Assembly: GCF_964355755.1 (NCBI RefSeq)
Contig: NC_092677.1
Coordinates: 8,127,001-8,191,000, forward strand
Reading direction: 5' to 3'
DNA length: 64,000 bases
Source: Antedon mediterranea
Taxonomy: Eukaryota > Echinodermata > Crinoidea > Comatulida > Antedonidae
The first letter of the stretch is position 1. Each line of letters starts with the position of its first letter. The notes beneath the pieces were generated by a model, which did not search any database, was not told the DNA's origin, and worked only from the letters and a program-made list of their open reading frames with translations. Below are positions 11,795 through 63,800 of the stretch, in pieces. A program made the position numbers and the translations under genes.

Positions 11795-12330
11795 TCTTCC
11801 ATGTTTCCAGTTGTAATTTCTCTGGTCTTTATTAACAATTCTTTCATGTTTTCAGTCGTGTTTTTCTCCTTCTATCTCTCTGGTATTTAACAGTTCTTCC
11901 ATGTTTTCAGTCGTGTTTTTCTCATTCTATCTCTCTGGTATTTAACAGTTCTTTCATGTTTTCAGACTTGTTTTTCTCCTTCTCTCTGGTCTTTAACGGT
12001 TCTTCCATGTTTTCAGTCGTGTTTTTCTCCTTCTATCTCTCTCGTCTTTATCAGTTCTTCCATGTTTTCAGTCGTGTTTTTCTCCTTCAATCTTCCTATT
12101 CTTTATCAGTTCTTTCATGCTTCCAGTCGTGTTTTCCCCTTCTCTCTGGTCTTTATCAATTCTTCCATGTTTCCAGTCGTTTTTTTCTCCTTCAATCTCC
12201 CTGGTCTTTATCAATTCTTCCATGTTTCCATTCGTTTTTTCTCCTTCTCTCTAGTCTTTATCAGTTCTTCCATGTTTTCAGTCGTACTTTGTCTAATTTT
12301 CTCTTGTCTTTATACTGTTCAGTTCTCCTA
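11795..12330. repeat. C/T-rich minisatellite, 50-60 bp units
   Basis: Roughly ten diverged copies of a unit containing TTCTTCCATGTTTTCAGTCG followed by TGTTTTTCTCCTTC and CTCTCTGGTCTTTATCAG run head to tail. The strand is strongly pyrimidine-biased, so frames of 118-137 codons appear open by composition only. I do not regard those as genes. Confidence 0.9.
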
Positions 12331-13000
12331 TGTCTTCAAACAATTGTTGTTGCCAATCCTGTGGATTAAAAAATGCATTTTGCGTTGTAGTTTTGTTATA
12401 TTGATTAACTTTGTTTAATGCCTGTGACAATAATGGATTACGTCATAAAACTAAAGAATGAATAACGCTATCTAGCTAATATATCATTTCAACGATAGAA
12501 GAATAATCTGTTATATAATTGTTTTAATAGCTAAAGCCATGCAATTCTTATTGCGCATTAGCTTACTCCTTATTATTTTATAATTGTATAGGCCGAGCCG
12601 ATGGGCTAGATTATTTTTCTATTTACAGCTCTGCAAAAACTAGGCATATAGACTATAATTGCAGATACAGTAGCTCCTATCATCCGTCACAGTAGAAAAT
12701 TGATGTTTTCAATAGATATAACGCTATAAAATTTTAATTCCAATAACTAATAAATAATAATATTTGTATTTTCGGACTATTCTTCACTCGAATTTACCAT
12801 TCTGAACAATCAAAATGTTGCTTTTGATTGGTCATTTACCTCGTTGCGCGTACGTTGACCATTTTCCTAGTGAGAGCCCAGCTTTCAAAGGCAGACGCCG
12901 ATATCAATTTTCTCATACATTTTAAACAGTTTAATGTGATCCAAATAAATATTTATTATGAATATTACATGACTAATTTCATTCATTTACAAATATTTAA

Positions 13001-13015: not shown

Positions 13016-13024
13016 AGAAGCTCG

Positions 13025-14125
13025 ATGGATTTCAACAACACCTCCAGCACCATCAGCAGTAGCTATGATTATCCAGGCGAGTTCGATCCTACTTCTACGC
13101 TGTGGCAGGATTTCATCGTTGCGATGGAAATAACGTTCATAATTGTTGGCATATTTGGAAATACGCTGTTGATTTTTATCATCATCGCTAACAATAACAT
13201 GCACAGTGCCCACAACTACCTGTTAGTATGCTTAGCAATCGGAGATTTGCTGTTACTGACGCTCGGTGTACCAATTTTTGTGTTTAAAAAAATCACTACT
13301 TACGCCTCTTTTCTACATAAAAGCTCAATTGGATGTAAACTGGTTCACGGCTGCTTAGTGATGGCTGAGTGTGTATCCATTGGTACCTTCACTGCCCTTA
13401 GCGTCGATCGTTACATGGTTATACGGTACAGGATGACCAGTTGCAACTCTCAAAGCTACCGAAAGTATATATGTATCTGCATTTGTATCTGGTTTTTGGC
13501 TATTTGCATCAGTGCACCAATATTCCACCAAGCTTATATCACAGAGTTACCACTGTACGGTAACATGTCACTTATCACGTGTTATCCGTTTGTAATGCAC
13601 TCTAATTTTGCAAAGACTTACCAGGTTACGGTTGCTATAATCATGTATATGATACCTTTGGTGTTGATATTGATTTGTTATTCAAAGATGGCGTTTATAT
13701 TGATGACAAGTATAAGGACAAATAATGTTATTAGCCAAGGCTCTGCTACAGATGCAATGACGAGAAGACGGTATTTGGCTCGAAGCGTGCTAATCATGAT
13801 CGTCATATTTGCCATTTGTTGGTTACCACTGCACGCCTCTGAAATAGTGCGACAGTATAACGACGAAGATATCAACTTTACCGTTAGGCAACACCCATTG
13901 ATGCAATTAATATCAAATATAAAATATTTGATGATTATTTTTAGCGCATGTGCCAATCCGTTGGTTCTGTTCACTGTAAGCAAACAGTTTAAGAGATATC
14001 TTAGGCAATATTTCTGCTGTAAGAAATCCATTGATCTCAAGCACCCAAAATCGTTCACATTAGTGCCATCATATAAAAAGGTTGGACAGATTGAAAAAGA
14101 CACAACACGAAGTACTTCTTTGTGA
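13025..14125 (+). CDS. Class A GPCR, bombesin/CCHamide-receptor-like
   Basis: A complete single-exon seven-transmembrane receptor of 366 residues, acting at the plasma membrane. Hallmarks seen: G45-N46 in TM1, LAIGD (D74) in TM2, a Cys pair C104/C186 for the TM3-ECL2 disulfide, DRY at 128-130, W156 in TM4, P211 in TM5, CWLP at 265-268 in TM6 and NPLVLF at 311-316 in TM7. TM7 thus has Phe where NPxxY has Tyr. N-terminal sequons at N4/N5, a loop sequon at N284, a double Cys at 331-332 for palmitoylation and a C-terminal TSL that fits a class I PDZ ligand. The RRR...LARSVL entry to TM6 and the SKQFKRYLRQ helix 8 resemble bombesin, endothelin and CCHamide receptors, so a peptide ligand is inferred. 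Subfamily is tentative; class A membership is firm. Confidence 0.93.
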   Translation: MDFNNTSSTISSSYDYPGEFDPTSTLWQDFIVAMEITFIIVGIFGNTLLIFIIIANNNMHSAHNYLLVCLAIGDLLLLTLGVPIFVFKKITTYASFLHKSSIGCKLVHGCLVMAECVSIGTFTALSVDRYMVIRYRMTSCNSQSYRKYICICICIWFLAICISAPIFHQAYITELPLYGNMSLITCYPFVMHSNFAKTYQVTVAIIMYMIPLVLILICYSKMAFILMTSIRTNNVISQGSATDAMTRRRYLARSVLIMIVIFAICWLPLHASEIVRQYNDEDINFTVRQHPLMQLISNIKYLMIIFSACANPLVLFTVSKQFKRYLRQYFCCKKSIDLKHPKSFTLVPSYKKVGQIEKDTTRSTSL

Positions 14126-20378: not shown

Positions 20379-23300
20379 TTAAAGTTCATCACGCCAAGAT
20401 TTTTCATTGAGTTGGTAGCTTGGCTCATCTAGCAAACGTGCAACATCCTTGAACATCTCAATGTCTGCTTCAACAATTTGTCTCCGAGTAACAAAGCCCC
20501 GATTACGCTTATCAAAAATGGAGAATGCCTGAAAAGATACAAATACAAAATAAACATTCTCTTATGATTTTAATGGAGCATTATAGTAGTAAAATAGTAA
20601 TAAGAGTATATAATAATAATATATTGTTTTGATTTAGCTTTTTGCTTTCTTTTTGAATATTCATTGAGATCCAGCCACTGATACCAACAGCATTGTTTTT
20701 TTTAGTAATTTGCCTTTGGATTTATAATAATAAAAGTAGTATACATCTGAAACAAAGAGGTTATATAATTAACTAGAGAGTGAACTCCTATGTAAAAAAC
20801 AGTTCAAAAAGTTATTCAGCATGGAGTGAGACCATGAAATATAGCTGCATCACTTTGGCCAATAGATTTGCCAGTTTGAAGTCAGGGCCCTTGGTTACCG
20901 CTACAACGCAACATAAGTACATAAGCGCCACTTAGGTGGGACTGTTCGATTAATTCTTTGCTTGCGATTGGTCAAATTACATGCACTGTGCTTACGCTCT
21001 TGCGAGGCTTCATGAGAATGCAATGCATTAGTCACCTACTAATTTGCCTGTGTTGTGAAAACACCTTCTTATAATATATTATTTTCTTGCTATTAAAAAT
21101 GATGTACTGTTTTTCATATCTTACGTCCTTAGTATTATATACTTATATATATTTAATATACAATAAATAGTTTTAATATTTTTGAACAAAAATATTTGGC
21201 AACAAATTTAGGAAGTCCCGGCCTTGTTGGTAAAACTTCACTGTTCCTAACAAATTATACACACTCTGAACATTGTACTTTATTTTATTAACTTAAGTAT
21301 TCACATATTATTCACTTTCATTCCTTACAATGAAGACACCGTATCTTTAATATGATCTTTTTACATTATTTACCAGGAAAAAATAAATAAATTCAATGAC
21401 TATACCTTCATTGCGTCTGCTCTCAATTCCTTATTTTGTAAATCTGGTTCAAGATCATCCAAAAAATAGTCAGCATAGAAAATCATGAATCTTTCAAATG
21501 ATAGACGGTCGTCTTCTCGTAGAATCTGTAGGAATGACTGGCGGATAGATGCCGGATCCATATAACCCATTTCAATTACCTGGAAAAAAATATAATTATT
21601 AAAGTAGTTTTTTTTATTAGGTATAACAAATCATGAGATAAACATGCAACTTGCCATGGCTTTAGTTTGATAACCAGACCACTTCTAAATCTTAGTAACT
21701 GTTCTATCATGTATTGCATTGTCAAATTAGGACTTACTTGCAGCCTACAAGTTCATCTATAGTAACTACTGATACGTACCTTAACAATAACATTAACACA
21801 TTTATTACCTTGTCTCCCTCCTTGTAAGTCCAAAAGATTGGAACCTGATCCAGTGATGTATATGGGAACTCATTACCACAATCAGTATCGTTGAAATGTG
21901 GTTCAGTAGTGAACAAGATGGCATAAGACATGCTACGTCCGTATGAACGAACTTGATGAAAGTAGCCTAAAAAAAACATGTACAGAAATTTGTAGGTGAA
22001 ATATTTAAGGTCATTACTAAAAGTTAAAGGAATGGCAAAGGCTTCATGAGGGCTACATCTGACAAAGGATGATACAATCTTCAGATGTAGCAGTTGTGCC
22101 AAGTTGGGGTCCAGTTTGTTTCAAGTTGTTGCAGATTTTACTTGCTTGAGCCAAAGTACATTATAGAATAAATGTTGGACTTAAGGCGACACCTCTGAAT
22201 CAGTGTTAGACAGCTCTGTAGCGCAACTGGACCTACAGTTCTTTAATTTATCAGTTCAGATTAAATTGATGGATGAATCGAGTTGGATACAAGCCACATG
22301 CTTACCTGATGGGATAAAGACACAATCTCCGGGCCAGATGGTAGTCCACTGCCACGGTACCTTAGAAAAACCACTGTACTTAAACATATTGATCATCTCA
22401 ACATCAATCTGTGAATACCCAGAACCTGAATCTGGTGACTACACAAAAGAAAAGATATGTTTTGGTTAAAAGTCGATCAGGACATCAATAGAACGAAACC
22501 TGTGGCCGCATTCACCATTCACACTTAGGCTAAGGGAAACACCTTAAAATTAAAAAAATCTCCTACCTAAGTGAATACAGTTTAAGGGAAATACTTACAT
22601 ATTAATTGAGTTAAGTGAAATACTTAATATTCACTTAAGTGTGATTGGTGAATACGGCAACATTGTTTTCTTTTTTGTGTTTAGTGGAAACCAAGAATAT
22701 TAATATGTATTTATTTGTTTTGTTTAAATAAGCAAGCAAATGTTTAACCATGACAATATTTTGTTACAGTTCGGATGATCCATGGCATCATGAATTTGTT
22801 TTTATTTTTTCAACATTTATTTTGATAATAATGGCATAAACAACATATGAGTACAAACTACATGGTAAAATTACTTGCGCCGCGCTTACGTCGTTGAGTT
22901 GTGTGAGAACCATGCTTAAATGCTGAGGTAGGATGGTTCGATTGAGCATTTTAAAATCTTTAAATTACCTTATTTGCAATTTCAAGAAACTTAGAATATT
23001 TTGGATGGATAAAAATAAAATCTTTGCGGCCGTCCAGCAGACAATGGATGTTATGGTCAGCGTCGTAATGCAGGACAGACGATGTACCACCACTGCTCAT
23101 CCAAAAGTTACTTTCTTGAATCAACTTCTTGAATGAACCGCATAGTAAACACTGTGGAACCTGCACAAAAGAAGGTAAAGAAAGTGTAATGTGTTGTAAA
23201 TTATTTCATCATAGAATCGAGAGGGAAAAAATTATAAGTAATTAATTAAACAATTGAAATATGTTGAATTAATTTCACCTGGATTCAAAATATTAAATCT

Positions 23301-26300
23301 GAACACTTTTTCTCTTTGTGCAAAAATCTAATCTAGTCTGGATTGGAAAAGATGGACTTGACTGGAGATGAACAGGGATACACACGATGCACGGAATCAT
23401 ACATGCTTAGTAATCCATCGTCAAAACATACAACACATACAGTAACATCACACTACTGGCCAACTGTATTCAGATGTTTATTTCATATAGTTATACGAAA
23501 TCTGTTCTTCAAATATGTTTAAAAATGTATTGTCTTCTTAAAAAAAAATTGTTGCCATTATAATGTTACATAAAGGTTTAAAAATTGTATCGCAAAAAAA
23601 AAAATTACCTGAAAAACTTTAATTTAAAGCAAAGAAATAGTATAATTGTTTGTCAAACAATGGTTTTGATCAATTTGTTATTCGTTTAATTGATTTCGTC
23701 TATAGAAATTAATAACTTGTTTAGAACTGCAAAAGTCTGATTTTATAAATCGTTATTTTTCAGGGGAAATACATCTTAAAACTTGAATTACAAACAGTAT
23801 CTGTAGATCAAGTTTTTGCAATTGTTATTTACCTTTACATATGATCTCATTTCGTCAGGTAAAACTGTTACAGCATACCAATCCTCCGTCTTATATCCTT
23901 TTAGGAATTCCTTCAATGGCCTAACATTTCGAACAACGTTGGCTCTGTTTTCTTTTTTTAATTCAACTATAACTTGAAGATTTCCAAAACTGAAAATAAA
24001 TCATACATACATGTACATATAATTATTAAATTGTATTATTTGTGTTGAACCAGGGTTTAGAGATGGGTTTCTCTCAAATAAAATTAAGAAAATATTATTT
24101 TTACCTTCGCCTAGGAGGTTTATTTTTGTCTGAGATATTTGTGTGTAGTGTTGTGTATGTTTGTTTGTTTGTTAGCAGGATAAAATAAACACTAAAAGAG
24201 GGACCGAATTTAAAACACAGAGAGTTATGTGGTCACGGATGACTCCATTGAATTTTGGAGACAATTAAAATTCTGGACCATTATTTTACTTAGGCCGTAC
24301 GTCAAAACTACCAACGGATCTTTATCACGATTCTTGATCCTTTTTCTCTTTTTACTCCTGGCATGATTTGATAATCATATAGTATCTAGTACAACTTGGG
24401 CTGTAAAACTGTGTAAGATCCTTTAAATGTTATATAAATTTGTTTAAATAAAGGAAATTTTTTTGTCATTTTTTTGTGGGTTCTTCCCACTTTTATTTAA
24501 TCAAAAAACGTGATAAATATTTAAAAAAACACAAATCTAATATTATATGTGTATACATAATCCACACAATTATAAAATTATATAAATATATTACACATAC
24601 ATGTATACAGTATATGTATACATATGTATATATCTTTATTCTATGGTATATTGAAATTATATATCTGAATCTATAGCGGTATATAAGCAATATTCATAAT
24701 CATTACAATATTTTATTTCTTTGTTTGAAAGAGACCATTGTTTAATTCAATCCAGTGATAATCAATGTTGCATTGATATTTATTTTGTTATTGTCTGGTC
24801 TTTTCTTTTATTGTTTAGGTTATCAGTCATCAAAAAGGAAATCCACAGCTGTTTCAACCTCTTAACTGTTGGTATGGGAATTATAATTGTAAGTACTAGA
24901 TGGTACGCTCGCTTCGCTCGCGTACCATCTAGGTCGTGCCCACAGATGGTTCTCGAATACATAATAATTTCAGCGTTAAAAAACTGGCGATTTCAAATGT
25001 ACGTACCGCAGGACAATAATACATGTCGTTTACAGGAACGAATAAATAGACACTGTGATTTATGTACTCAACTAAAATTAGCACCCTGGGAATTACTTCC
25101 AAAAGAGAAACTTGTCACAAAATGAGACCAATTGTTTAAGTCAAATTTAAACAAACTAAATTTGTGTTTTGTATGTAACATTAGGGTTGAGGGATGGGGA
25201 AGAGGATGGGTGCAAAGGGGAACACTTTTTAAATATATTCTTTATCCATTTAGTAACGAAATATTAATTGTTTTCATGTTTTACAAATAATATACCACTA
25301 CACACAGTAAAACATTGCGATTTAATACTTTGTTGAAGCTATCACCGTCGATTGAAATAGTACAGTACATGTAACGCTACATCACTACGACGTGAATATG
25401 TTTATATAATGTAAAACAATTTGTGAAAACCACCTCTATTCGGGGAAAATCATAAATTCGATTTAATCGTCAATAAATATTAAATTATCTAACTCAACTT
25501 AATTAGTAGGCCTAATGGTTTTCAATTGTTTCTTAGAGCCAATTCATACTTAAGTTGGTTCCTACCCTACCCACCAAAGTTGTTCTGCGTTTAGGGCATG
25601 TGATGTACCGTAGGCCTATCCTCTACTGGTTTTACAACGCTACTCATGCCAGTGAGGGAAGGGTGATGATGTGGGTGGTTTAACTGCAATAATAAAGATG
25701 TGTACATAATATACGGCGAGTGAAAACGCTAGCTCATTATCCGTTTAAAAAAAATTTATATCCAACCTCTGCAGCACAGATTGAAAAAAAAAATGGATCG
25801 AATTTCTGTTATGAGTATACAGTAGTTGCCTTTACGACGCCTGAGGGAATAGACGCTTGTGGAACAGAGATTGGAATGTTTCATTCATCGCAAATCAATA
25901 CATTTGTATAACGTATTTTAAATCTATCAAAATAGTATTTTTTAAAGAAAATCGGCCTGTCTTCAACATTATGATGCTGTACTCGAGCTGTTCAACTGGT
26001 TTTCAGCCATTAAAAACAATTATCGTAGGAGGAGATAGGAAAATGCGAAGCATCCTCGCATTATTGTCTGCGGGTATTTATCAAGACGGACATCCATTAG
26101 ACAGTGTATACCACGATCGAAAAACACCCCTATTTGGGGCAAATCGTTGAACCTAAATTCGTTTTAATCGTCAATAACTAATTATCTAACTCAATTTAAT
26201 TAGTAAACAGGGTTACATCAGGTGGTTAAAATCAGTACCGAAAGTACGAACCAACTTTATATACCATCGAGTAAACATTCTAGAAATAACGCGCGATTTA

Positions 26301-27864
26301 CCGAATTTTGCCCTTACGTAAATTTATATATAGATTACAGGAAATTCATCCACTTTTTTTTAGTTTTTATTCATTTTTATCTTAAACCAACGGCTGTTTC
26401 AACCTCTTCACTGTTGGGATGGGAATTTTAATTTAAGTACAGGAAATTTATAAATTTGTTTTAATTTCTTTATATAAAACTGGTTGATTTTCATCTTAAA
26501 TCAACGTCTGTTTCAACCTCTTCACTGTTTGGTGGGAATTTTAATCTTAATTAGTACAGCTAAATTGCTGTTAGTTTCTTTATATTAAAATGGTTGATTT
26601 TTAATATCTTAATCAATAGCTGATCAATGGTTTCAATATCATCACTGTGAAGATGGGAATTTAAAAAACAAAAAAGGGAAGTTCTTTAAAATAAAACTTA
26701 GTGGATTTTTATATAGTAGGCCAACTGTTTACTCTTTTATAATATCAATGGCATTTTCAGCCACATAAATACGCCTGGTGAGTTTGACCTTAATCAATTC
26801 AACGACGAGCAAAGGCAAATATAAAAAAATTGTCCAATCGTATTGAACCCTAAATTACTATCCACATCACTACGCCAAAGTCAAACTAAACTTACAAAAC
26901 TTTTTTAACTGACCAATCAGGACTTTCTTGACTCTTATATTTTATAATTGTAGGTCAATATATAAGGAACAGAACTTACTTTTCTTCCAAAAAACTATCA
27001 TCCCATTTTTCAAAAGCTAGCGAATCTTTTACTGCTCCTCTCATAACCAATGGTTTCTTTTTACTGACATGAAGATCTGAAAACTCTCTAGGGTGAGGTA
27101 CCACAGGGACTTCCATGACTTTGCCCTCTGCCTTGCGTTGGTAGCCTTAAGATATAAATTAAATATAACATTAATTAGTTTGTATTTTATCACCACTAAC
27201 CCTTGGTTTTGATGTTATATATTTTCAATGGTGCTTAGTGAGTGAGTGGCTGAGTGGTTAAGACAGTGGGACTGTAATACGTAGCCATAATATCGGCAAG
27301 GGTTCAGGCCTCACTAGCTCCATGGTTCTGGTGGTAGAACAAGTCTTCTCGGATAAGGACTATAAACCGTAGGTCCAGTGATACAAAAAATGCTCATTTG
27401 CACTTTTTAAAGAACCTAGTAGTTTAGTACATCTTTCGAGACCAGTAGGGGTTACCCTGGTGTACTGTACTACAGTAGTTTACACAGCCACTGTCAAACA
27501 CAGCCACTACTTAAAAGTAGGCATTCTAGTAGGTCTCTTTCTTAGTTATAATAATAAATTGATTGTGGAACTATGACGATGGAGAGTGTAAGATATTTCC
27601 CTGACCTAGAGAAGAATTGACTGGCCAAAACAGGGAAGGTTCTTTGTCTATGACTTCCGCAGTTTATGATGTTGTGAGTTGTTACTTACCTAATGGTCTT
27701 AAATGACCATCCGGTATCCCAGATCCTGATCTGCTTGATTTGAATTGTACTGGAAATTTGACATCCATTCTCATGTCCTTCGGGAAAGGAACATTACATT
27801 CCACCAACAACATTAGGATACCAATTATACTCAATTGCAAAATTGAACAGTTTTTAACTTCCAT
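20379..27864 (-). CDS. ER-luminal JmjC hydroxylase-like protein, RDEL
   Basis: Eight exons read high to low: 27690-27864, 26980-27145, 23833-23989, 22969-23160, 22306-22438, 21809-21966, 21406-21579, 20379-20528. All junctions are GT-AG and in phase, giving 434 residues. A hydrophobic signal peptide occupies about residues 1-24. The JmjC/Cupin_8 fold starts near PLVMRGA (90-96) and has iron ligands H197, D199 and H278. N203 and K212 sit exactly where the asparaginyl hydroxylase FIH has N205 and K214, so Fe(II)/2-oxoglutarate binding looks intact. A C-terminal helical region includes a degenerate EF-hand (FDKRNRGFVT, from D391) and ends WRDEL, a KDEL-type ER retrieval signal. A luminal protein hydroxylase is inferred; the substrate is unknown. 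ER-luminal JMJD8 is a loose analogue with a different layout. Confidence 0.9.
20661..20730 (-). repeat. Dispersed repeat, reverse of 10841-10920
   Basis: On the minus strand it reads through AAATCCAAAGGCAAATTACT to GTATCAGTGGCTGGATCTCA, matching 10841-10920. It lies in the last intron of the JmjC gene. Confidence 0.7.
22505..22658. mobile_element. Intronic MITE
   Basis: Inverted ends GCCGCATTCACCATTCACAC and the complement of GCCGTATTCACCAATCACAC bound a 154-bp element in intron 5 of the JmjC gene. A possible half-copy lies near 31575-31615 (GGCCGTATTTAATAAATAAC). No coding capacity. Confidence 0.75.
24104..24275. repeat. Dispersed repeat, widespread marine type
   Basis: CCTTCGCCTAGGAGGTTTAT is followed by TGTTTGTTTGTTTGTTAGCAGG and then CACGGATGACTCCATTGAAT with TTTTGGAGAC. 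From memory, this arrangement resembles a repeat seen in many marine invertebrate genomes. It lies in intron 2 of the JmjC gene. The family assignment is recollection, not a search result. Confidence 0.5.
24895..26182 (+). mobile_element. Dispersed element, copy 1
   Basis: It starts with the palindrome AGATGGTACGC...GCGTACCATCT and runs in parallel with 60861-64000: the shared text includes GTCGTGCCCACAGATGGTTC, GATTTCAAATGTACGTACCG and, near the far end, TCATCGCAAATCAATACATT and ACACCCCTATTTGGGGC. A short internal direct repeat (around 25430-25510 and 26118-26210) carries TTTAATCGTCAATAA. No intact protein frame is shared by both copies. The element interrupts a tandem array whose units lie on both sides. 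It sits in intron 2 of the JmjC gene. Confidence 0.8.
26330..26665 (+). repeat. Tandem repeat, about 115-bp unit
   Basis: Three units marked by TGTTTCAACCTCTTCACTGT start near 26395, 26509 and 26628, the last diverged. A further unit with the same core lies at about 24790-24894, immediately left of the dispersed element. The array was probably continuous before that insertion. Confidence 0.8.
27233..27500 (+). mobile_element. tRNA(Leu/Ser)-like SINE
   Basis: The head has an A-box-like GTGGCTGAGTGGTTAAG and a B-box-like GGGTTCAGGCCTC, typical of tRNAs with a long variable arm. The body contains GCTCCATGGTTCTGG and TCGGATAAGGACTATAAACC. A reverse copy with the same body lies at 38155-38318. 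This family differs from the SINE at 2826. It lies in intron 1 of the JmjC gene. Confidence 0.75.
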
Positions 27865-29329: not shown

Positions 29330-32300
29330 TTATTTTTTTCTTTTAACATTTATATATACAGGTGTATCATCCGTCTTCCTCTGTAGATCTTGGTAAAGGG
29401 TGCCTTTTTGTTCGCCATTATAAACGGTGTAAACCTAAAAAAAAAAAAGTGGAGAGTACAAATGAAATATCTGTAGTGAGGAATGTCTTTCAGTAGTTTA
29501 GTTTTTTTGTTTTGTTATTCCTTTAAAGCTCACACTGAACATAGTTGTTCATAAACACACAGGGACGAGAACTGAGAGCTATCTATGTTGCACTCATGTA
29601 TTTTTTACTCAATAACATTTAGTTAGGGCCTTATACATGCAAGTAAAAAGTTGCAAAAGGTAACAAATGGTTGATTAAAATATTGATTATAATATCGAAC
29701 AATTAGTATATCGCAATTCTTAAAATACCAAAAAATATACTCTACATGAAGAAAGTAAAACCAAGGCAATCTAACACCAGGATGCTGAGCTGCTCCAGAA
29801 ATCAAGGGTTTATTCGGCGGCTGCGACACGATCAGTGCCACAAACCTTAACAGACAACGCGGACCGCGCGGGGAATTTATTTGTTTATACTGTTGGTATT
29901 TGTCGCAGCCAGACATTAGATCAAAGGAATGTTACGAGTTCCTATCTTGGCAAGACCAGTGTCCTGTTGTTAGATTTCCCTGGTAAAACTTATGTCTTCA
30001 TAATATGTATACGGCAGGTGGGTATTGCTCTTTTCAAATTGTTCAAGATTGGTATTCACTCCCTCCTCTCATGCGGCGTCTAGTTGTAAAATGATAATTG
30101 TTTTACAACCCCCTAATTATATGCGTGCAAGACTGAACATTTTACTTACTGCCTCCTTTGTCTGGTGCGAAGCTTCTGGTACCTATAAAAAGATAAGGAA
30201 GTCATGGTAGGTTAAAGTTTCTGAACTCATACACATTAGATACATTGATGAGACATAAACCGTTGTGAAACAAACCTTTAAACAGAATCCTCACAACAGT
30301 TAGACATTATTTAACTACTGGTAGAACCTTCCAGGTTGCGTACTGTTTCATCTTTCAACGTCGTCCAAGTGCACAATCCATTTTCGTTATTTTGAGCAGA
30401 TTTTACTGAAGATGAATGCTTCCAATCAATACAGAATGTTTTGTCTTTCCGATGATGTAATCAGGTTTGATAGAGCGGCGTGATAAAAGTACTATAAAAG
30501 TATAATAACCTGATTCTTTGATGCTTTAATTTTGCCGAAGATTAAGAATACCGAAGAAGTTAAAAGTATTCCAACCGCAAGTCCAACAAATGCGATACCA
30601 ACGATGAGCCCGGCTTTTCGATTTTCTGAAACTGAAGCAAAGGTATTGTGAGAATGGTTCTATTTTATTCTATTTTAAATAATAACCTGATTCTTTGCCG
30701 ACGATTAAGAATACCGAGGAAGTTTAAAAAAAGTAAACTGAATTTTGAATGAATAGAACATCTCATCTCATCTCTCATCTCATAGCCTATTTCACCCACT
30801 GCTGTGTGAAGGCCTCCTCTAGCTGTTTCCATTTAGTTCTGTTCCTTGTCGATCTTTCCCATGTTGCCGTTTCCATGTACGTTGTTATGTCGTCACGCCA
30901 TCTTCTTTTTTGCCGTCTCTTCTTCTTCTCCCTGTCCTCGGCTGCCATTCATTCAATCTCTACGTCCTTCTGTTGTCGTCTCTTCTGGCTATGTTTCCTG
31001 CCATCTCCATTTCAATTCTTTGATCTTTACCATGATGTCTTTGACTGTTGTTCTTTTCCGTATCTCACTATTTCTTCTCTGTCTTGTATTGATAGATTTA
31101 CCATTTTTCTTTCCATCGCTCTTTGTGTTGTTATCAATTTTTGTTCCATCTCTTTCGTTGTTGCCCATGTCTCTGCCCAATTAACTATAGTTGTTAGAAC
31201 ACATTGATTGTACACCCTGCTTCTTATACCCCTTTCACACCAAAACTCCGGAGTGTCTCTGGAGTTCGCTCTCCGGAGAATGTTCAGCTGTTCAACCCCG
31301 CAGTTTTAAACTCCGGAGTTGCTTGATTTTACCTTTCACACCAAACAGCGGGACGTCAACTCCGGGGTGTCTCCGGAGTGTCTCCGGAGTTTTGCTTTTG
31401 GTGTGTGAAAGGGGTATTAGTGACATGGGAATGTCTTGGTCGGTCAGGATAGAACATGAATGAGTGTAAATTTCAAACATACAGGAACATAACAAACATT
31501 TGCAATAGGCACATTAAATAAATATTGTTTTTATTATGATTATGTTACGTATCGAGGTGCCAAGTGAACTACAGTGGCCGTATTTAATAAATAACACTTA
31601 ATTGAGATATTTCCCTTAAATCAAGACAATTAATTTAAATCACGTTATTATAATTACCTTCAAAACTGTAATTTGAATCCATGGTTGCTAAAAGCACAAA
31701 GAAAGAATTATGTTATGTTAATATTTCCACAAAAACATGACAATATAATGAGATTAAACATGTTCATTTGGTTTTTAGTTTCGAAAAGAATTGTCACAAT
31801 TTACTATGACAAATAAAGATAAATAAAATAAAAGCAAAAACAAATTTTCAATAGGCCTACTAATAAAGTTATTCTCTTTTGCCAAAAAATGAATAAAAAA
31901 TAAACTGTAAAAATATAATGTAACCAGGAACCCTTCCAGACAATGTGCTTCAGATATCAGATATACATCATTTTTTATTCAATGGAGAGAAGATATCTCT
32001 AGAAACTATTTCCAATTGTAATTCAAAATTCAAAAATCTTACAAAGCAACGAAAGTGTTCCTATGTTACTCAACTTTCCTTCATTTCTGTTGTAAGCGGC
32101 ATTTTCCGCTCGGCACTGATAAGCGCCCTCATCCATTTCATTTACTCTGTTAATCTCCAAAAACAAATATCTCTTAATAAATGACTTCATGTACTTCCCT
32201 TTATTTGAGACGTTCAGCAACTTTCCGTCTTTGAGCCACTCAGTGCTGATAGGAGGGTATCCATATGCAGTTAATGAACAAACAAACAAACCAGTTGTAT

Positions 32301-33901
32301 TTTTTCTTAAATGTATATCTGGTGATTTGAGAGTAATCTCTCCTAGATCTGTAATGATATTGTTTCATAATAACCATTAACCATTTCTCTATTATAGCTA
32401 CTCCCTGTTTTGCAAAATGTTGCGGAAGAGGGCTCAGTATACTTACAACTTACTCTAAAGTATTCTGATCTACTTGACTTCCCTTCTTCATCTTTAAACG
32501 CATCGTTCTCTACTTTACATTGGTACCGTCCTGTGTCCGTCTGTTCTAATCTAATGATCTCTAACGACGTTGTATTAGTCTGTGAATACTTCAGTGTGTC
32601 ATACACATCTATAACGTTCCCATTTTTCAACCATGTGACGTTGTATAAGTTCGGAACGCCTTTAGATGAGCATATAAATGTTGCATTTTCGCCTATCTTG
32701 CTGTACGTTACGGGAAGCTTTAGTACAGGTACTTCTAGATCTGTGTTTACAATCCACAAACAAAATTAATAAATAAATTAGTAGAAATACATTGTTTTTA
32801 TCTATGCAACAACAATTAAATTCACTTGCAAATGTGGATAAACCTATGCCTATGGATATAAGCCAAATATCATTTGACAGTCATGATTACAATCATAGCA
32901 CTGTGACTAGGTAGGTCAGGACTAACCCTTGAGATTGGAAGAAAATCACCAAGCTTTAAACTTCACAACAAATACAATTGAATACACATTATGTCAATTC
33001 AATTGCTCTCTACATGACAGCGTATCACATGGTATTCGAACATACAGTATCTATAATAGTGAAAAATACAAATTGTGTGTGCTTCTTTTCTACTTACAAT
33101 TGACAATCAGCTGGTAGTTTGCACCTTTCCCAGTTACTTCGTCTCTGCAAAAGTAGGAATCAGCATCACTAATATCAATCTTTCTAATAGAAAGAGCACC
33201 ATCACTTTGTAAAATGTATCTCCCATTACTAGGCCTACTAATACTTTCGTCGTCAGTAGAAACAATAAGATCTTTAACTGACGTTGATGATCTGTACCAA
33301 CGAGTACCGAAACTACTTTTTATTGAACATGTCGGCAGTTCTCTTGATTCACCAGCTTTAACCTCAATAATTGAACATGTTATTGCTCGAATACCTACAA
33401 AGATAATAAAATGCAGATATTCTTTGATTTTAGTTTCATTATTATGCACAAAAAACGTTAATAGCAGAGCAGATAAAAAGTTAGTAGGCCTACATCTGCA
33501 ATAATGGTTACATAATAAATATATAGCATTATAGGCCTATGATATAAAATGCCTGCGTGTATCATGTGAGTTTTGAAAATCGTACTTGGCTTGGTAACGA
33601 AGATACGGATTTTCGTGATTAATGAGTTATGTACTCGTGGTTATTTGTGAGTACGGAGTTCGGTATGCTTGCTGTTATTACAACAAGCCAGATATGTTGT
33701 ATATAAAGGCGAATAAATTGATCTGATTGTGTCGTACACATCGTCTAGTCTAGGATGTGTACCTTTTCTTTAAATTACTCAAGTATAACGAAGAATGACA
33801 TCAAGTGGCCACAAGAAAAACGTTAAGCAGCCAAAAAATAAATTATACTTACTAAAACATAAAACAATTATTATTGACACGTAGTGGTAATGAATGTGCA
33901 T
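29330..33901 (-). CDS. Three-Ig-domain receptor with tyrosine-motif tail
   Basis: Eight exons high to low: 33853-33901, 33098-33394, 32447-32740, 32043-32348, 31658-31687, 30510-30631, 30150-30182, 29330-29434. Phases agree throughout (phase-1 Ig exons), giving 411 residues. A 16-residue signal-peptide exon leads to Ig1 (C39, W49, C99), Ig2 (C139, W152, C190) and Ig3 (C237, W251, C292), each with a D-x-G/A/D-x-Y-x-C end. Sequons occur at N134, N149, N171, N230 and N259. A 30-base microexon gives the juxtamembrane piece, and residues 333-357 form the membrane span. The short tail carries YQDL (391-394) and YINV (404-407). YINV fits a Grb2-type pYxN site, and the pair resembles a loose ITAM. 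Cell-surface recognition or adhesion with tyrosine signalling is inferred; no orthologue named. Confidence 0.87.
29755..29990. mobile_element. Foldback/MITE-like element
   Basis: CCAAGGCAATCTAACACCAG at 29761 is inverted near 29982 (minus-strand CCAGGGAAATCTAACAACAG), with a second inverted pair GGCTGCGAC inside. It lies in the last intron of the Ig-receptor gene. A related half-copy is at 56784-56866. Confidence 0.7.
30680..30726 (-). pseudogene. Partial duplicate of transmembrane exon
   Basis: This 47-base stretch repeats the donor end of exon 6 (30510-30631), including CTGATTCTTTG and ATTAAGAATACCGA on the plus strand, with about 13 bases missing. It keeps a GT donor but no acceptor, so it is unlikely to be used. 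Confidence 0.75.
30775..31213 (-). pseudogene. Decayed LINE 3' fragment in intron
   Basis: Minus-strand frames read NWAETWATTKEMEQKL, then TTQRAMERKM and later KKRRQKRRWRDDI, the arrangement seen after the reverse transcriptase in many invertebrate LINE proteins. The reading is split between at least two frames with stops, and there is no catalytic core. It sits in intron 5 of the Ig-receptor gene. Confidence 0.75.
31227..31416. mobile_element. Palindromic MITE with TTA duplication
   Basis: Inverted ends TACCCCTTTCACACCAAAAC and its near-complement bound a 190-bp element rich in CTCCGGAG. TTA lies outside both ends (31224-31226, 31417-31419). The TSD length matches the MITE at 6573, but the termini differ. 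It lies in intron 5 of the Ig-receptor gene. Confidence 0.85.
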
Positions 33902-44769: not shown

Positions 44770-45825
44770 CTACGATTTTACTAACTGGAAATCGTCAAAA
44801 TTTGAAATGTTTGATTTTGATTCCTTGCATTTAAAAGTTCGTCTGAAAGCAATTCTAAAGTCTTGTCTTCTACAGGCGTATATAAACGGGTTCACCATAG
44901 AGCTAGCAAACACAATTGCTTCAAAAAACCACACCAGCACCGGTATATTGATGTCCCAAATGTATTCTACGTATGTGAGGATAGTTAACGGAGTCAAAGA
45001 CAGTATAAAAACCACCAGAACAAGAGTAATGGTTATAAAGGATTTCAGATGAAGTTCGACAGATATGAGTTCTGACGTCCCTTTCCTCGGTCTGTTCTGT
45101 CTCGTTAACATCATCGTACCGGGTAGTTCTTTCTCTTTTTTTCTGGCAATTACGTACGAACTCATATGTAATTTAATCATAATTGTAAGAATAATCAAAA
45201 AATAAAAACTGCATATATAATTTCTGATTCTGTTTGCTTGTCCTTTGATTGTGATAATTCCTGAGGTCAAGTCTCTCTCGACTCCCCAGAAGAAAGGTAT
45301 TAAAATCGGTATAAAGCTAACAATCCAGGCTACAGCAATGTACTTGAATGCTCGAACTTTTGTCGATTTTCCAATGTAACTAAGTGGCTGGGTCAATGCA
45401 CAGTAACGGTCCCACGTAATCAATAGCAGGTTGTGAATAGAGGCCCATGAAAACAAGAACAATGGCATTACGTACATAGTCACTCCATCGCTTAAATTCG
45501 CATTAGAAAATTGTCTACGAACAAATACGTAATGCATAATAACTCCTGGTACGGCAATGGCACCGGTAAGGAAGTCTGCGACAGCCAGACTCCCCAGATA
45601 ATAATTCCTAACAACTTGAAGTGTTGGATAACGGTAAATCGTAAACACAACTATAGCATTGCCGACGATGCTAACTACTCCAATCGGTACAAATACCACC
45701 ATAATATATATAATCACATATATACTTAATTCAGAGCTGGACGGTATTAATATCTCTGTTGTACTATTCACAGTAAAATATAATTCCGTTTGGTATTCAG
45801 TTGTATATTCCATGTTGTTCTTCAT
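44770..45825 (-). CDS. Divergent amine-receptor-like orphan GPCR (copy A)
   Basis: Intact single-exon receptor of 351 residues. Class A marks seen: G55-N56, LAVAD (D84) in TM2, DRY (139-141), W167, P279 in TM6 and NPFIY (312-316), with C333 in helix 8 as a palmitoylation candidate. The TM3-ICL2 text (HNLLLITWDRY, QPLSY) is most like muscarinic or histamine receptors. Yet the amine-binding Asp of TM3 (position 3.32) is Leu, the TM3 disulfide Cys (3.25) is Val, ECL2 lacks a free Cys, TM5 has Met216 instead of Pro, and TM6 has SLTP in place of CWxP. A non-amine ligand or altered signalling is inferred. Sequons at N20 and N110. It is the paralogue of 56951-58009. Confidence 0.93.
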   Translation of the reverse strand: MKNNMEYTTEYQTELYFTVNSTTEILIPSSSELSIYVIIYIMVVFVPIGVVSIVGNAIVVFTIYRYPTLQVVRNYYLGSLAVADFLTGAIAVPGVIMHYVFVRRQFSNANLSDGVTMYVMPLFLFSWASIHNLLLITWDRYCALTQPLSYIGKSTKVRAFKYIAVAWIVSFIPILIPFFWGVERDLTSGIITIKGQANRIRNYICSFYFLIILTIMIKLHMSSYVIARKKEKELPGTMMLTRQNRPRKGTSELISVELHLKSFITITLVLVVFILSLTPLTILTYVEYIWDINIPVLVWFFEAIVFASSMVNPFIYACRRQDFRIAFRRTFKCKESKSNISNFDDFQLVKS

Positions 45826-56950: not shown

Positions 56951-58009
56951 TTAGACTACGATTGGTCTTTCATAAACGTTGGTAGTTCGACGACATCCAA
57001 AAAGTTTACGAAAGGCTGCATTGAAATCTTGTCGCATGAACGCGTAAATAAACGGGTTGATGGAAGAACTACAGAACATAGCAACCTCTGAAATCCACGC
57101 TATTTCTGTAACGACACAACCATTACTATAACTAATAGACGTTGTGACAACCAATGGGAACAGTGTTACAACAAACACAGACAGCACTAGACTAGTTGTT
57201 TTAAAAGCTTTCTGGTGGATCTCCCAGTAAAGTTTCATTGTACCGCGTTGAAAAATATGAGATGGATTTCTGGATCCAATTTGGTTAGTATTATTTACGT
57301 CCAGTTGCTGTCTGCCTGATATTTTCTTGTTCTGTTGTCGCGCAATGCTGTATGTTTTCAGATGCAACGTAATAATGATAATCATAACACAAGTAAAGTA
57401 TACCATACAAATATAGTTCCGAACTTTGTTTCCAAAAAGGTCAAAACGCACACCAAAATCCGATTTTTCTAAATCCCAGAAAAATGGTATGATACAAGGG
57501 TACCAACTGACCAACCAACACATCCCTATCAGACAAAATGCTCGCCTCGGAGAGAGTTTTAATCCGTATGTTAACGGCCAATTCACCGCAACAAATCTAT
57601 CAAATGTGATTAGTAGTAGATTATGAATCGAAGCCCAGATAAAATAGAACAGAGGAATTGTGTATAAAGAAGCGCCCTCAGCGAATCCATTCTCAGTGCT
57701 TATTTGAAAACTTCGCCTATAGAATAAATAATATACAACTGTCGTTGGCACGGCAATGAGCCCTGTGAGAAAGTCTGCTAGAGCTAAACTAGCAACGAAA
57801 TAGTTCCGCACAACCTGTAAAGAAGGTTCGTAGTATATTCCAAGGATCACGATAGCGTTGCCAAAGACACTGGTGAAAAAGATCGCACCGAATACTAAGG
57901 TTATATATAAAATGAACGCTTCTGTTATTTCCACTTTTTCACCACCTCCATGTTCAATGTCTGTGTCCACGGAAGAAGAGTAATTGATAGTTGTGACATC
58001 ACATTCCAT
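56951..58009 (-). CDS. Divergent amine-receptor-like orphan GPCR (copy B)
   Basis: Intact single-exon receptor of 352 residues, paralogue of the one at 44770-45825. They share LQVVRNY, ADFLTG, WASIHNLLLIT and RQDF..AFR. Marks: G50-N51, D79 in TM2, DRF (137-139, Phe for Tyr), W165, P285 and NPFIY (318-322). Copy B repeats copy A's losses: Leu at 3.32, Ala at 3.25, no ECL2 Cys and Ile212 in place of the TM5 Pro. The third intracellular loop is longer and basic. An acceptor (TTTGTCTTTATTTTTCTAG) ends three bases before the ATG, so a 5' non-coding exon is likely. The stop overlaps TAATAAA, a possible polyadenylation signal. C-terminal IVV fits a class II PDZ ligand. Ligand unknown. Confidence 0.93.
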   Translation of the reverse strand: MECDVTTINYSSSVDTDIEHGGGEKVEITEAFILYITLVFGAIFFTSVFGNAIVILGIYYEPSLQVVRNYFVASLALADFLTGLIAVPTTVVYYLFYRRSFQISTENGFAEGASLYTIPLFYFIWASIHNLLLITFDRFVAVNWPLTYGLKLSPRRAFCLIGMCWLVSWYPCIIPFFWDLEKSDFGVRFDLFGNKVRNYICMVYFTCVMIIIITLHLKTYSIARQQNKKISGRQQLDVNNTNQIGSRNPSHIFQRGTMKLYWEIHQKAFKTTSLVLSVFVVTLFPLVVTTSISYSNGCVVTEIAWISEVAMFCSSSINPFIYAFMRQDFNAAFRKLFGCRRTTNVYERPIVV

Positions 58010-58012
58010 TAT

Positions 58013-60860: not shown

Positions 60861-63800
60861 ACTAGATGGTACGCTCGCTTCGCTCGCGTACCATCTATGT
60901 CGTGCCCACAGATGGTTCTCGAATACACAGTAATTTCAGCGTAACAAAACTGGCGATTTCAAATGTACGTACCGCAGGACTACAATACATTGTCGTTTAC
61001 AGAAACGAATAAACAGACACGATGATTTATGTAGTCAACTAAAATTAGCACCCTGGGAATTACTTCCGAAAAGGAGTCCAAATTTTTGATTTGGACTCAT
61101 TTAAAGAAACCCAATTTGTGTATGTAACATTAGGGTTGAGGGATGGGAAAGCGGATAGGTACAAAGAGGAACAATTTTTAAATATATTTTTTATCCACTC
61201 AGTAATGAAATATTTTGTTCATGTTTTATAGGCCTATAAATAATATACCTCTAAATACAGTAAAACATTTGCGATTTAATACTTTGTTAAAACTGTCACT
61301 GTCATAATCGATTGAAATATTAAAGTATCAATCAATGTACAACTCTACATTGCGTTCAATCATTGCTATTCGACCGCAAACTCCATGGTATACTGGTGAG
61401 ATACGAAAACAGAAAAAAGTAAGAAGGCAGCTGGAGAGGAAATGGCGTAAGACAGGTCTCGAAACTGATTGGCATGCTTACACACATCAACGCCAATGTG
61501 TATCATCACATATTCATACTGCAAAGTTGGAATATCACTCAGCTCTAGTAAATAATGCTGTAGGCGACCAGAAGCAATTATTCAAAATTGTAAACACGTT
61601 ACTGCATAGAGGAAATACGACACCCTTACCTACCTGTAAATCAACCAGTATTCTTGCTGAACGTTTCTCAGAGTTTTTTTAATGAAAAGATCACTAAAAT
61701 TCGATCAGGATTTCCTCAATCTGTTCTCCAAGATGCGCATACATTTAGTACAAAGGCTCTTTTAAGCTGTCAACTGTCTATTCTTGAACCAACCACAGAT
61801 GAGGAGATCGAGAAATTGATCAAGGCATCCCCGATAAAGTCTTGTGAGCTAGATCCTATTCCAACTTGGCTTTTAAGGGATTGCGGTCCTGTAATAGTTC
61901 CAGTGCTAATGAAATTAGTTAATCTTTCACTTATCACATCCACAGTACCGCAGAATTTAAAGAAAGCACATGTACGGCCTTTGCTGAAGAAGACTGGCCT
62001 CAACCCAGAAGTTCTTAAAAATTATAGACCGGTTTCAAATTTATCCTTTGTTTCGAAGCTTATTGAGCGTGTTGTTGCAGTTAGACTCTCTAAGCATATG
62101 TCAAATCACAACCTCCATGAAACTACCAATCAGCATACAAAGCTAACCACAGTGTGGAGACAGCGCTTCTACGTGTTCAGAATGACGTTTTGACATCAAT
62201 AGATAATCAAGAACTTGTTATTCTAGTTTTACTAGACTTATCGGCTGCTTTTGACACAGTAGATCACTCACTGCTTCTTCATAGATTGTCACATGATATT
62301 GGGGTAAGAGATCAAGCATTGTCTTGGTTCACATCATATCTAAGGAACAGAACCCAGGCCGTCTGCATTGGTGATGTTTCATCAGATGACCTTCCTCTAT
62401 TATGTGGCGTCCCACAAGGTTCGGTGCTTGGACCACAGCTGTTTCCCATCTATGTTGCCCCAGTTGCTGAAATAATACGAAGACACGGATTATGTCATCA
62501 TTTCTATGCAGATGATATACAAATCTACGGTTCTGTCAAGCCTTGCCAGACCAAGTTTCTGTCCGCCGTAAAACGGTTAGAAGCATGCACTGCTGAGATT
62601 AGAAAATGGATGGGCTCCAACTTCCTCAAGCTAAATGATAAAAAGACCGATGTGATGCTATTTGGTTCTGTTCAGCAGAGAAAAAAGATCCGGATTGATG
62701 GCCTACATATTGCTGGCGTACTAGTCAATCCATCATCAGAAGTTCGTAACCTTGGTGTTCAACTTGATTGTAAAATGACCATGGAATCACATATCAACAA
62801 AATCTGCCGATCTGCTATTTTCCATTTATGTAACATCGCCAAGATCCGACGTTACTTCAACCATTGTGCAACAGAGCAGATTGCACATGCTTGTGTTACC
62901 AGTCGGCTTGATATGGGAAATTCCCTGCTGTATGGTCTGCCAAAGAAGCAGTTGCGGACTCTCCAGAAGGTGCAAAATTGGGCAGCTCGCTTGGTGATGT
63001 GTGCCAAGAAGTATGATCACGTCACACAATTGTTCAAAGAGTTAAATTGGCTACCCATGGAGTCACGTGTTAAATTTAAGATCCTGCTGCTGGTGTTCCG
63101 ATGCCTAAATAGTTGCGCTCCAAAATATCTCTCAGAATTGTTGACAGTCAAGAAGGGAAAGCGAGAACTACGATCTAGTCATCAGGTTCTACTGGACATT
63201 CCAAGGAGCAAACATAGTTGGGGAGATCGGACTCTCAGTGTTGCTGGACCTAGGCTTTTTTTACAGCGCCATGAGCAATGAATGTTGGAATGGCGCTATA
63301 TAAATCGAACGATTGATTGAAAGTACATGTCACGATACACCACTACGACGTTTATATTATTGGTAATTATTAATTAATACAAACGTTGAGAAGGAACTGT
63401 CAGTATAAAGTTTATTTGTATATAATAATGTGTTTATATATCTAACAGTAGAGCCTAACCACAATCTCAGTAATAAAGTTTATTTGCATATAGTTTTATA
63501 TTACATCTAACAGTACGAACATTCACAGTAAGAAATGTTCGATTCAAATGAGGACCAAAAATAGTTAATAGGTATTTACAGTATTGTCAAACTATTGCAA
63601 GTTTATTCTCAAAGGGCCCATATATTTACCTACCGTATGATTTAAACCAAGGGCTCATAAATGTACCTACTTGTGTTAAACCAAACTCTGGCAGACTGAG
63701 AGATTGGGATGTTCCATTCATCGCAAATCAATACATTTGTATAGGCCTAATCGTATATTAAATCTATCAAAATAGTATTTTTTTAAGAAAATCGGCCTGT

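Follow-up and report, generated by a model that had tools for sequence, protein, structure and literature searches.

The JmjC proteins known to be related to the gene described here, which lies in a 64,000-nucleotide stretch of Antedon mediterranea DNA (GCF_964355755.1, NC_092677.1, 8,127,001-8,191,000, forward strand; hereafter the window, in whose coordinates positions are given), are mostly nuclear or cytosolic. The known 2-oxoglutarate (2OG) dependent hydroxylases of the endoplasmic reticulum (ER), namely the collagen prolyl and lysyl hydroxylases, ASPH and P4H-TM, are, as is also general knowledge, not JmjC proteins (PMC4543633, PMC7948501). JMJD8 is a JmjC protein with a signal peptide that resides in the ER lumen; the paper describing it mentions neither KDEL nor an EF-hand (PMC5684140). 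P4H-TM, whose EF domain lies next to the active site, binds Ca2+ within the ER range (PMC7948501). The window gene probably belongs to an animal family of soluble, ER-lumenal Fe(II)/2OG JmjC (Cupin_8) hydroxylases: the gene is intact, the catalytic residues are in place, both ends of the protein resemble sorting signals, and these features are conserved in paralogues.

The gene occupies 20379-27864 on the minus strand. A first-pass annotation had assembled it by hand from eight exons, and this assembly was borne out, with exact outer limits, GT-AG boundaries at every intron and phases that agree throughout. The coding sequence of 1305 nucleotides specifies 434 residues and a stop, with no internal stop codons; the protein begins with MEVKNCSILQLSIIGILMLLVEC and ends with WRDEL. 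Pfam Cupin_8 matches residues 78-291 at 111.5 bits (expectation value, E, 8e-32), the curated cut-off being 27.4 bits. The catalytic residues named in the first pass (H197, D199, N203, K212 and H278) are all present. Their spacing had been described as exactly that of FIH; this is true of the first four, but the distal histidine lies at +81, whereas FIH has it at +80 (general knowledge) and JMJD5, as numbered in PMC5862942, at +79; 'exactly' was therefore slightly too strong. The signal sequence and the retrieval motif proposed for the two ends also held. The N-terminal core LSIIGILMLLV has a mean Kyte-Doolittle hydropathy of 3.05, against a maximum of 1.34 in the rest of the protein, and the C-terminal RDEL is the only [KHR]DEL followed by a stop among the 8377 six-frame stops of the window.

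Searches of the assembly that holds the window (354 Mb in 18 contigs) with single proteins as queries gave exon-by-exon matches at four more loci: C3 (~9.777 Mb), C11 (~3.81 Mb) and two on C7 (~20.58 Mb and ~29.37 Mb). No further full family member was found in the same assembly with three sister proteins as queries, and 40 pattern matches in viral contigs included no relatives. The paralogue on C11 has 399 residues in 7 exons, C7a 444 in 9, C7b (C7 ~29.369 Mb) 435 in 10, and C3 (9.7727-9.7776 Mb) 531 in 9, the first 171 codons of C3 being free of introns; the models of C3, C7a and C7b were checked by hand. One intron of C7b is of the GC-AG type (AAT followed by gcaagt). All four frames lack internal stops, and all phases fit. 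Identity to the window copy is 29-34%.

Each of the five members matches Cupin_8 in Pfam, and the layout is common to all: a hydrophobic N-terminus, an intact HxD...H motif, an EF-hand-like C-terminal region and an [RK][DE]EL end. The recurrence of this four-part layout in four independently assembled paralogues supports the ER-resident JmjC architecture, as suggested in the first pass, well beyond one gene model; relatives devoid of both signal sequence and retrieval motif, which would have spoken against it, were not found among the four. A phase-0 intron directly precedes the EF-hand exon in every member (in one it is offset by one alignment column), four of the five have a GHLxPLG linker after the signal sequence, and four cysteines are invariant (C173, C206, C269 and C304). 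Just before C304, three members carry a glycosylation sequon: the window copy at residue 300, C11 and C7a (NDT, NHT and NFS). The window copy has another sequon at N229. The cysteines and the sequon would fit a lumenal protein, as soft evidence. C3 is longer than its sisters, with extra EF-hand-like exons.

Hydrophobic N-terminal cores were recognized in all five members by hydropathy alone, without a trained predictor (mean Kyte-Doolittle 2.25-3.05). In the four paralogues one uninterrupted exon runs from the signal sequence into the catalytic domain, which makes the sorting signal independent of any splice guess in those four. The C-termini read WRDEL, TKDEL, QKDEL, KKEEL and IKDEL; given the amino-acid composition of the family, the chance of a [KHR][DE]EL end is ~1.6e-4 per protein. 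The window end was given beforehand and those of C11 and C7a were read directly from the translated frames, while finding the last exons of C3 and C7b relied in part on their DEL-like ends, so that these two ends carry some selection. Taken at both termini, the signals indicate that the window protein is very probably a resident of the ER lumen.

Compared with solved structures, a profile of the five proteins is closest to JMJD5 (E 2e-32); other matches are JMJD7 (fly 9e-24, human 1.5e-21), TYW5 (2e-21), FIH (1e-12) and JMJD6 (1.5e-4). A separate JMJD5 gene (C5 ~4.149 Mb) is present in the same genome, as is an FIH-like gene (C6 ~26.70 Mb), together with exons that we take to be JMJD7, TYW5, HSPBAP1 and JMJD4, recognized by eye from the human proteins. 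A small tree built on the iron-site region, the deeper branches of which are without resolution, unites the five ER members, with support of 94/100, on a branch that excludes JMJD5. Since separate genes for JMJD5, FIH and other JmjC proteins are present, the group of five appears to be a distinct family. Three assignments to known types were considered and set aside. The members are not JMJD5 orthologues, as the genome has its own JMJD5 gene and the five group separately. Orthology to JMJD8, which was compared by description only (PMC5684140), was rejected on the iron ligand, Asp199 being kept in all five. Nor are they of the P4H-TM type, having instead a Cupin_8 domain and a C-terminal EF region.

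Residue roles in the active site were mapped from JMJD5 (PMC5862942). In JMJD5 numbering, the iron ligands H321, D323 and H400 (H197, D199 and H278 of the window copy) are kept in all five members, as are the 2OG-binding K336 and S318 and the 2OG-pocket residues W310 and V402. At L329 the family has Asn or His. The profile alignment pairs Y272 with an invariant tyrosine (Y152), whereas the MAFFT alignment does not, and the assignment of Y272 is therefore uncertain. The conserved site makes it likely that the window protein is a catalytically active hydroxylase. With regard to the target, JMJD5 holds the substrate arginine by a salt bridge from E238, the Ala variant of which is inactive (PMC5862942); this residue aligns with an invariant glutamate in the family (E123 in the window copy). 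As the equivalents of E238 and of the 2OG-pocket Trp and Ser do not vary within the family, the single likeliest class of target would be a basic residue, Arg or perhaps Lys, with a chance that we place just under even.

Several observations weigh against the assignment as a whole. Y243, the cation-pi partner and second arginine-binding residue of JMJD5, is kept in none of the five members, which weakens the inference of a basic residue. N327 (JMJD5) is kept in four of the five, with Ala at the N203 equivalent of C3, a paralogue that may differ in activity and in which the signal sequence, by hydropathy, is also the least clear. The EF-hand scores of the single proteins are all under the Pfam curated cut-offs. 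The gene models are predictions from genomic sequence.

The loss of Y243 from the arginine pocket would suit an active ER hydroxylase directed at something else, be it Asn/Asp, Pro, His, a different side chain or a substrate other than protein, and the superfamily does include asparaginyl (FIH) and transfer RNA (TYW5) hydroxylases, both of which match the profile. Such a target is nevertheless somewhat unlikely, given that the invariant E238 equivalent (five of five) is a residue of the best-matching relative and that a putative JMJD7 exon of the same genome, identified by eye, has Ala at this position when aligned by eye. It is also conceivable that the protein is retained in the ER but works through binding, as a chaperone-like folding factor or scaffold, as JMJD8 may. 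JMJD8, the one studied ER JmjC protein in the literature searched, has His in place of the iron-binding Asp and has been linked to protein-folding complexes (PMC5684140), and the missing 2OG-carboxylate Asn of C3 points the same way. However, none of the three iron ligands varies across five paralogues as diverged as these, nor do the 2OG Lys, Ser and Trp; this is hard to explain without catalysis, and we regard a pseudo-enzyme as quite unlikely.

The first-pass annotation had described the EF-hand region of the window copy as a degenerate remnant and had raised a possible link to calcium. 'Remnant' is apt, and the Pfam match (EF-hand_6, residues 383-404) is correspondingly weak, with E 0.06 for the whole protein and 0.013 for the C-terminal piece. 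Among its calcium-ligand positions, the loop DKRNRGFVTRRQ has Asp at 1, but 3 and 5 are Arg and 12 is Gln, so that it very likely binds no calcium. The loops of the sisters are better (DSNLNGRITEEE, DNNNDGVLVKED, DDNYDDIIDFEE, DTDQKGYVTCDK and DVNSDNIISKKE). The PROSITE pattern PS00018 does not fit the window copy and is matched in full only by DVNSDNIISKKE of C3, with near misses in C11, C7a and C7b. The C-terminal part of the five-protein profile matches hippocalcin (E 4.6e-4) and calmodulin (0.009) among solved structures. The link to calcium is thus weak for the window copy and better for the sister paralogues: the lost ligands make calcium control doubtful in the former, while it is plausible in the latter. 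A protein that is first of all a calcium sensor, whose EF-hands read store calcium and gate the oxygenase as has been suggested for P4H-TM, would agree with the EF-like loops of the four sisters and with the binding of Ca2+ in the ER range beside the P4H-TM active site (PMC7948501); the lost ligands of the window loop, the single C3 loop that satisfies the PROSITE pattern in full and the sub-threshold Pfam scores make it distinctly improbable. That the sorting signals are chance or artefacts of the gene models, and the protein an ordinary cytosolic or nuclear JmjC hydroxylase, draws on the gene models being predictions from genomic sequence and on the partial use of DEL-like ends in finding the C3 and C7b termini, and is very improbable in view of the one-exon span from signal to catalytic start in four paralogues, the [KR][DE]EL end in five of five (three of them seen without searching) and the conserved phase-0 intron before the EF exon.

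A soluble ER-lumen hydroxylase could operate as follows. The signal sequence would bring the protein into the ER co-translationally, and the KDEL receptor would retrieve it from the Golgi. Within the lumen, the enzyme would use O2 and 2OG for the Fe(II)-dependent hydroxylation of side chains on passing secretory proteins. The EF-hand module of the sisters probably tunes or stabilizes the enzyme in the calcium-rich lumen, in line with the proposal for P4H-TM; in the window copy it would be a structural remnant. The full description, a previously uncharacterized family of soluble ER-lumen JmjC arginyl/lysyl hydroxylases, catalytically complete, with C-terminal EF-hands and at least five genes in one animal, is offered tentatively, its chance being somewhat short of even.

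In five paralogues a complete JmjC site is flanked by signal and retrieval motifs, and this arrangement suggests that the secretory pathway houses a hydroxylation activity of a kind that is undescribed in the literature searched. Some secreted animal proteins do contain hydroxyarginine, one case being the 4-hydroxyarginine of mussel Mefp-3 (PMC4275877). If the assignment is correct, the family would add a calcium-aware, oxygen-dependent hydroxylation step to the making of secretory proteins and would be the JmjC equivalent of P4H-TM, which joins EF-hands to a 2OG oxygenase within the calcium store; the family's interest rests on this predicted function.

Table 1. Features of the window gene.
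Feature	Position	Strand	Remarks
Exon 1	27690..27864	-	Start codon, signal sequence and GHLRPLG linker; GT donor, phase 1
Predicted signal sequence, residues 1-23	27796..27864	-	Hydropathy only; (-3,-1) site between VEC and NV
Exon 2	26980..27145	-	AG/GT ends, phases fit
Exon 3	23833..23989	-	Holds invariant E123 (JMJD5 E238 equivalent)
E123 codon	23962..23964	-	Aligned to arginine-binding Glu238 of JMJD5 (role: PMC5862942)
Exon 4	22969..23160	-	Start of JmjC core: W186, S194, H197, D199, N203, K212
HYD iron-binding motif, H197-D199	23062..23070	-	Sequence motif
Exon 5	22306..22438	-	AG/GT ends, phases fit
Exon 6	21809..21966	-	Distal iron ligand H278
H278 codon	21956..21958	-	Distal iron ligand by alignment
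Exon 7	21406..21579	-	Helical region linking JmjC core and EF-hand
Exon 8	20379..20528	-	EF-hand-like segment, C-terminal RDEL, stop; preceding phase-0 intron kept in 5/5
Degenerate EF loop DKRNRGFVTRRQ, residues 391-402	20478..20513	-	Pfam EF-hand_6 E 0.013 (C-terminal piece)
C-terminal RDEL retrieval motif	20382..20393	-	Paralogues: KDEL, KDEL, KDEL, KEEL

The window contains other frames of note. Those at 13016-14122 (+), 44773-45825 (-) and 56954-58012 (-), the latter two alike, are long and intronless and by eye resemble rhodopsin-type seven-helix receptors. Exon-like frames at 32026-33536 (-) have immunoglobulin-type motifs (GxYQC) and probably belong to an immunoglobulin-domain protein. 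At 61308-63278 (+) there are reverse-transcriptase-like motifs (YADD), by eye those of a retroelement without long terminal repeats. The long overlapping frames at 11836-12415 (+) lie within a tandem repeat stretch and are probably repeat rather than gene.

The layout had been reported in the first pass as one without a match to a named, characterized protein. In the literature searched, with most subscription journals outside it, neither a JmjC protein combining an EF-hand with a KDEL-type end nor a published family of this composition was found, and JMJD8 was the only ER-lumen JmjC protein encountered. A review of the evolution of the ER calcium system mentions JmjC, hydroxylase and KDEL 0 times. 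Automatic annotations of orthologues probably exist in eukaryotic databases. The family seems real and coherent and is apparently uncharacterized, a set of JmjC hydroxylases set apart by compartment and architecture.

JMJD7, TYW5 and FIH share the Cupin_8 superfamily and the iron/2OG site with the family but are not known to be ER-lumenal, and JMJD5 itself is not known to have a signal sequence, EF-hand or KDEL. The arginyl C-3 hydroxylase JMJD5 (KDM8) has in common with the five members the Cupin_8/JmjC domain, the iron ligands, the 2OG Lys and the equivalents of W310, S318 and E238 (PMC5862942); its Y243 is absent from them. JMJD8 is likewise a JmjC protein with a signal peptide in the ER lumen, but it has His for Asp at its iron site and consists of the JmjC domain alone (PMC5684140). 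P4H-TM (P4HTM), also a 2OG oxygenase of the ER, bears an ER-retention signal and an EF domain that binds Ca close to the active site (PMC7948501). In contrast to the proteins described here, however, it is a membrane-anchored P4H-type dioxygenase rather than a JmjC protein, and its EF domain is inserted in the catalytic domain. JMJD8 and P4H-TM are each, in this comparison, partial precedents for the window protein.

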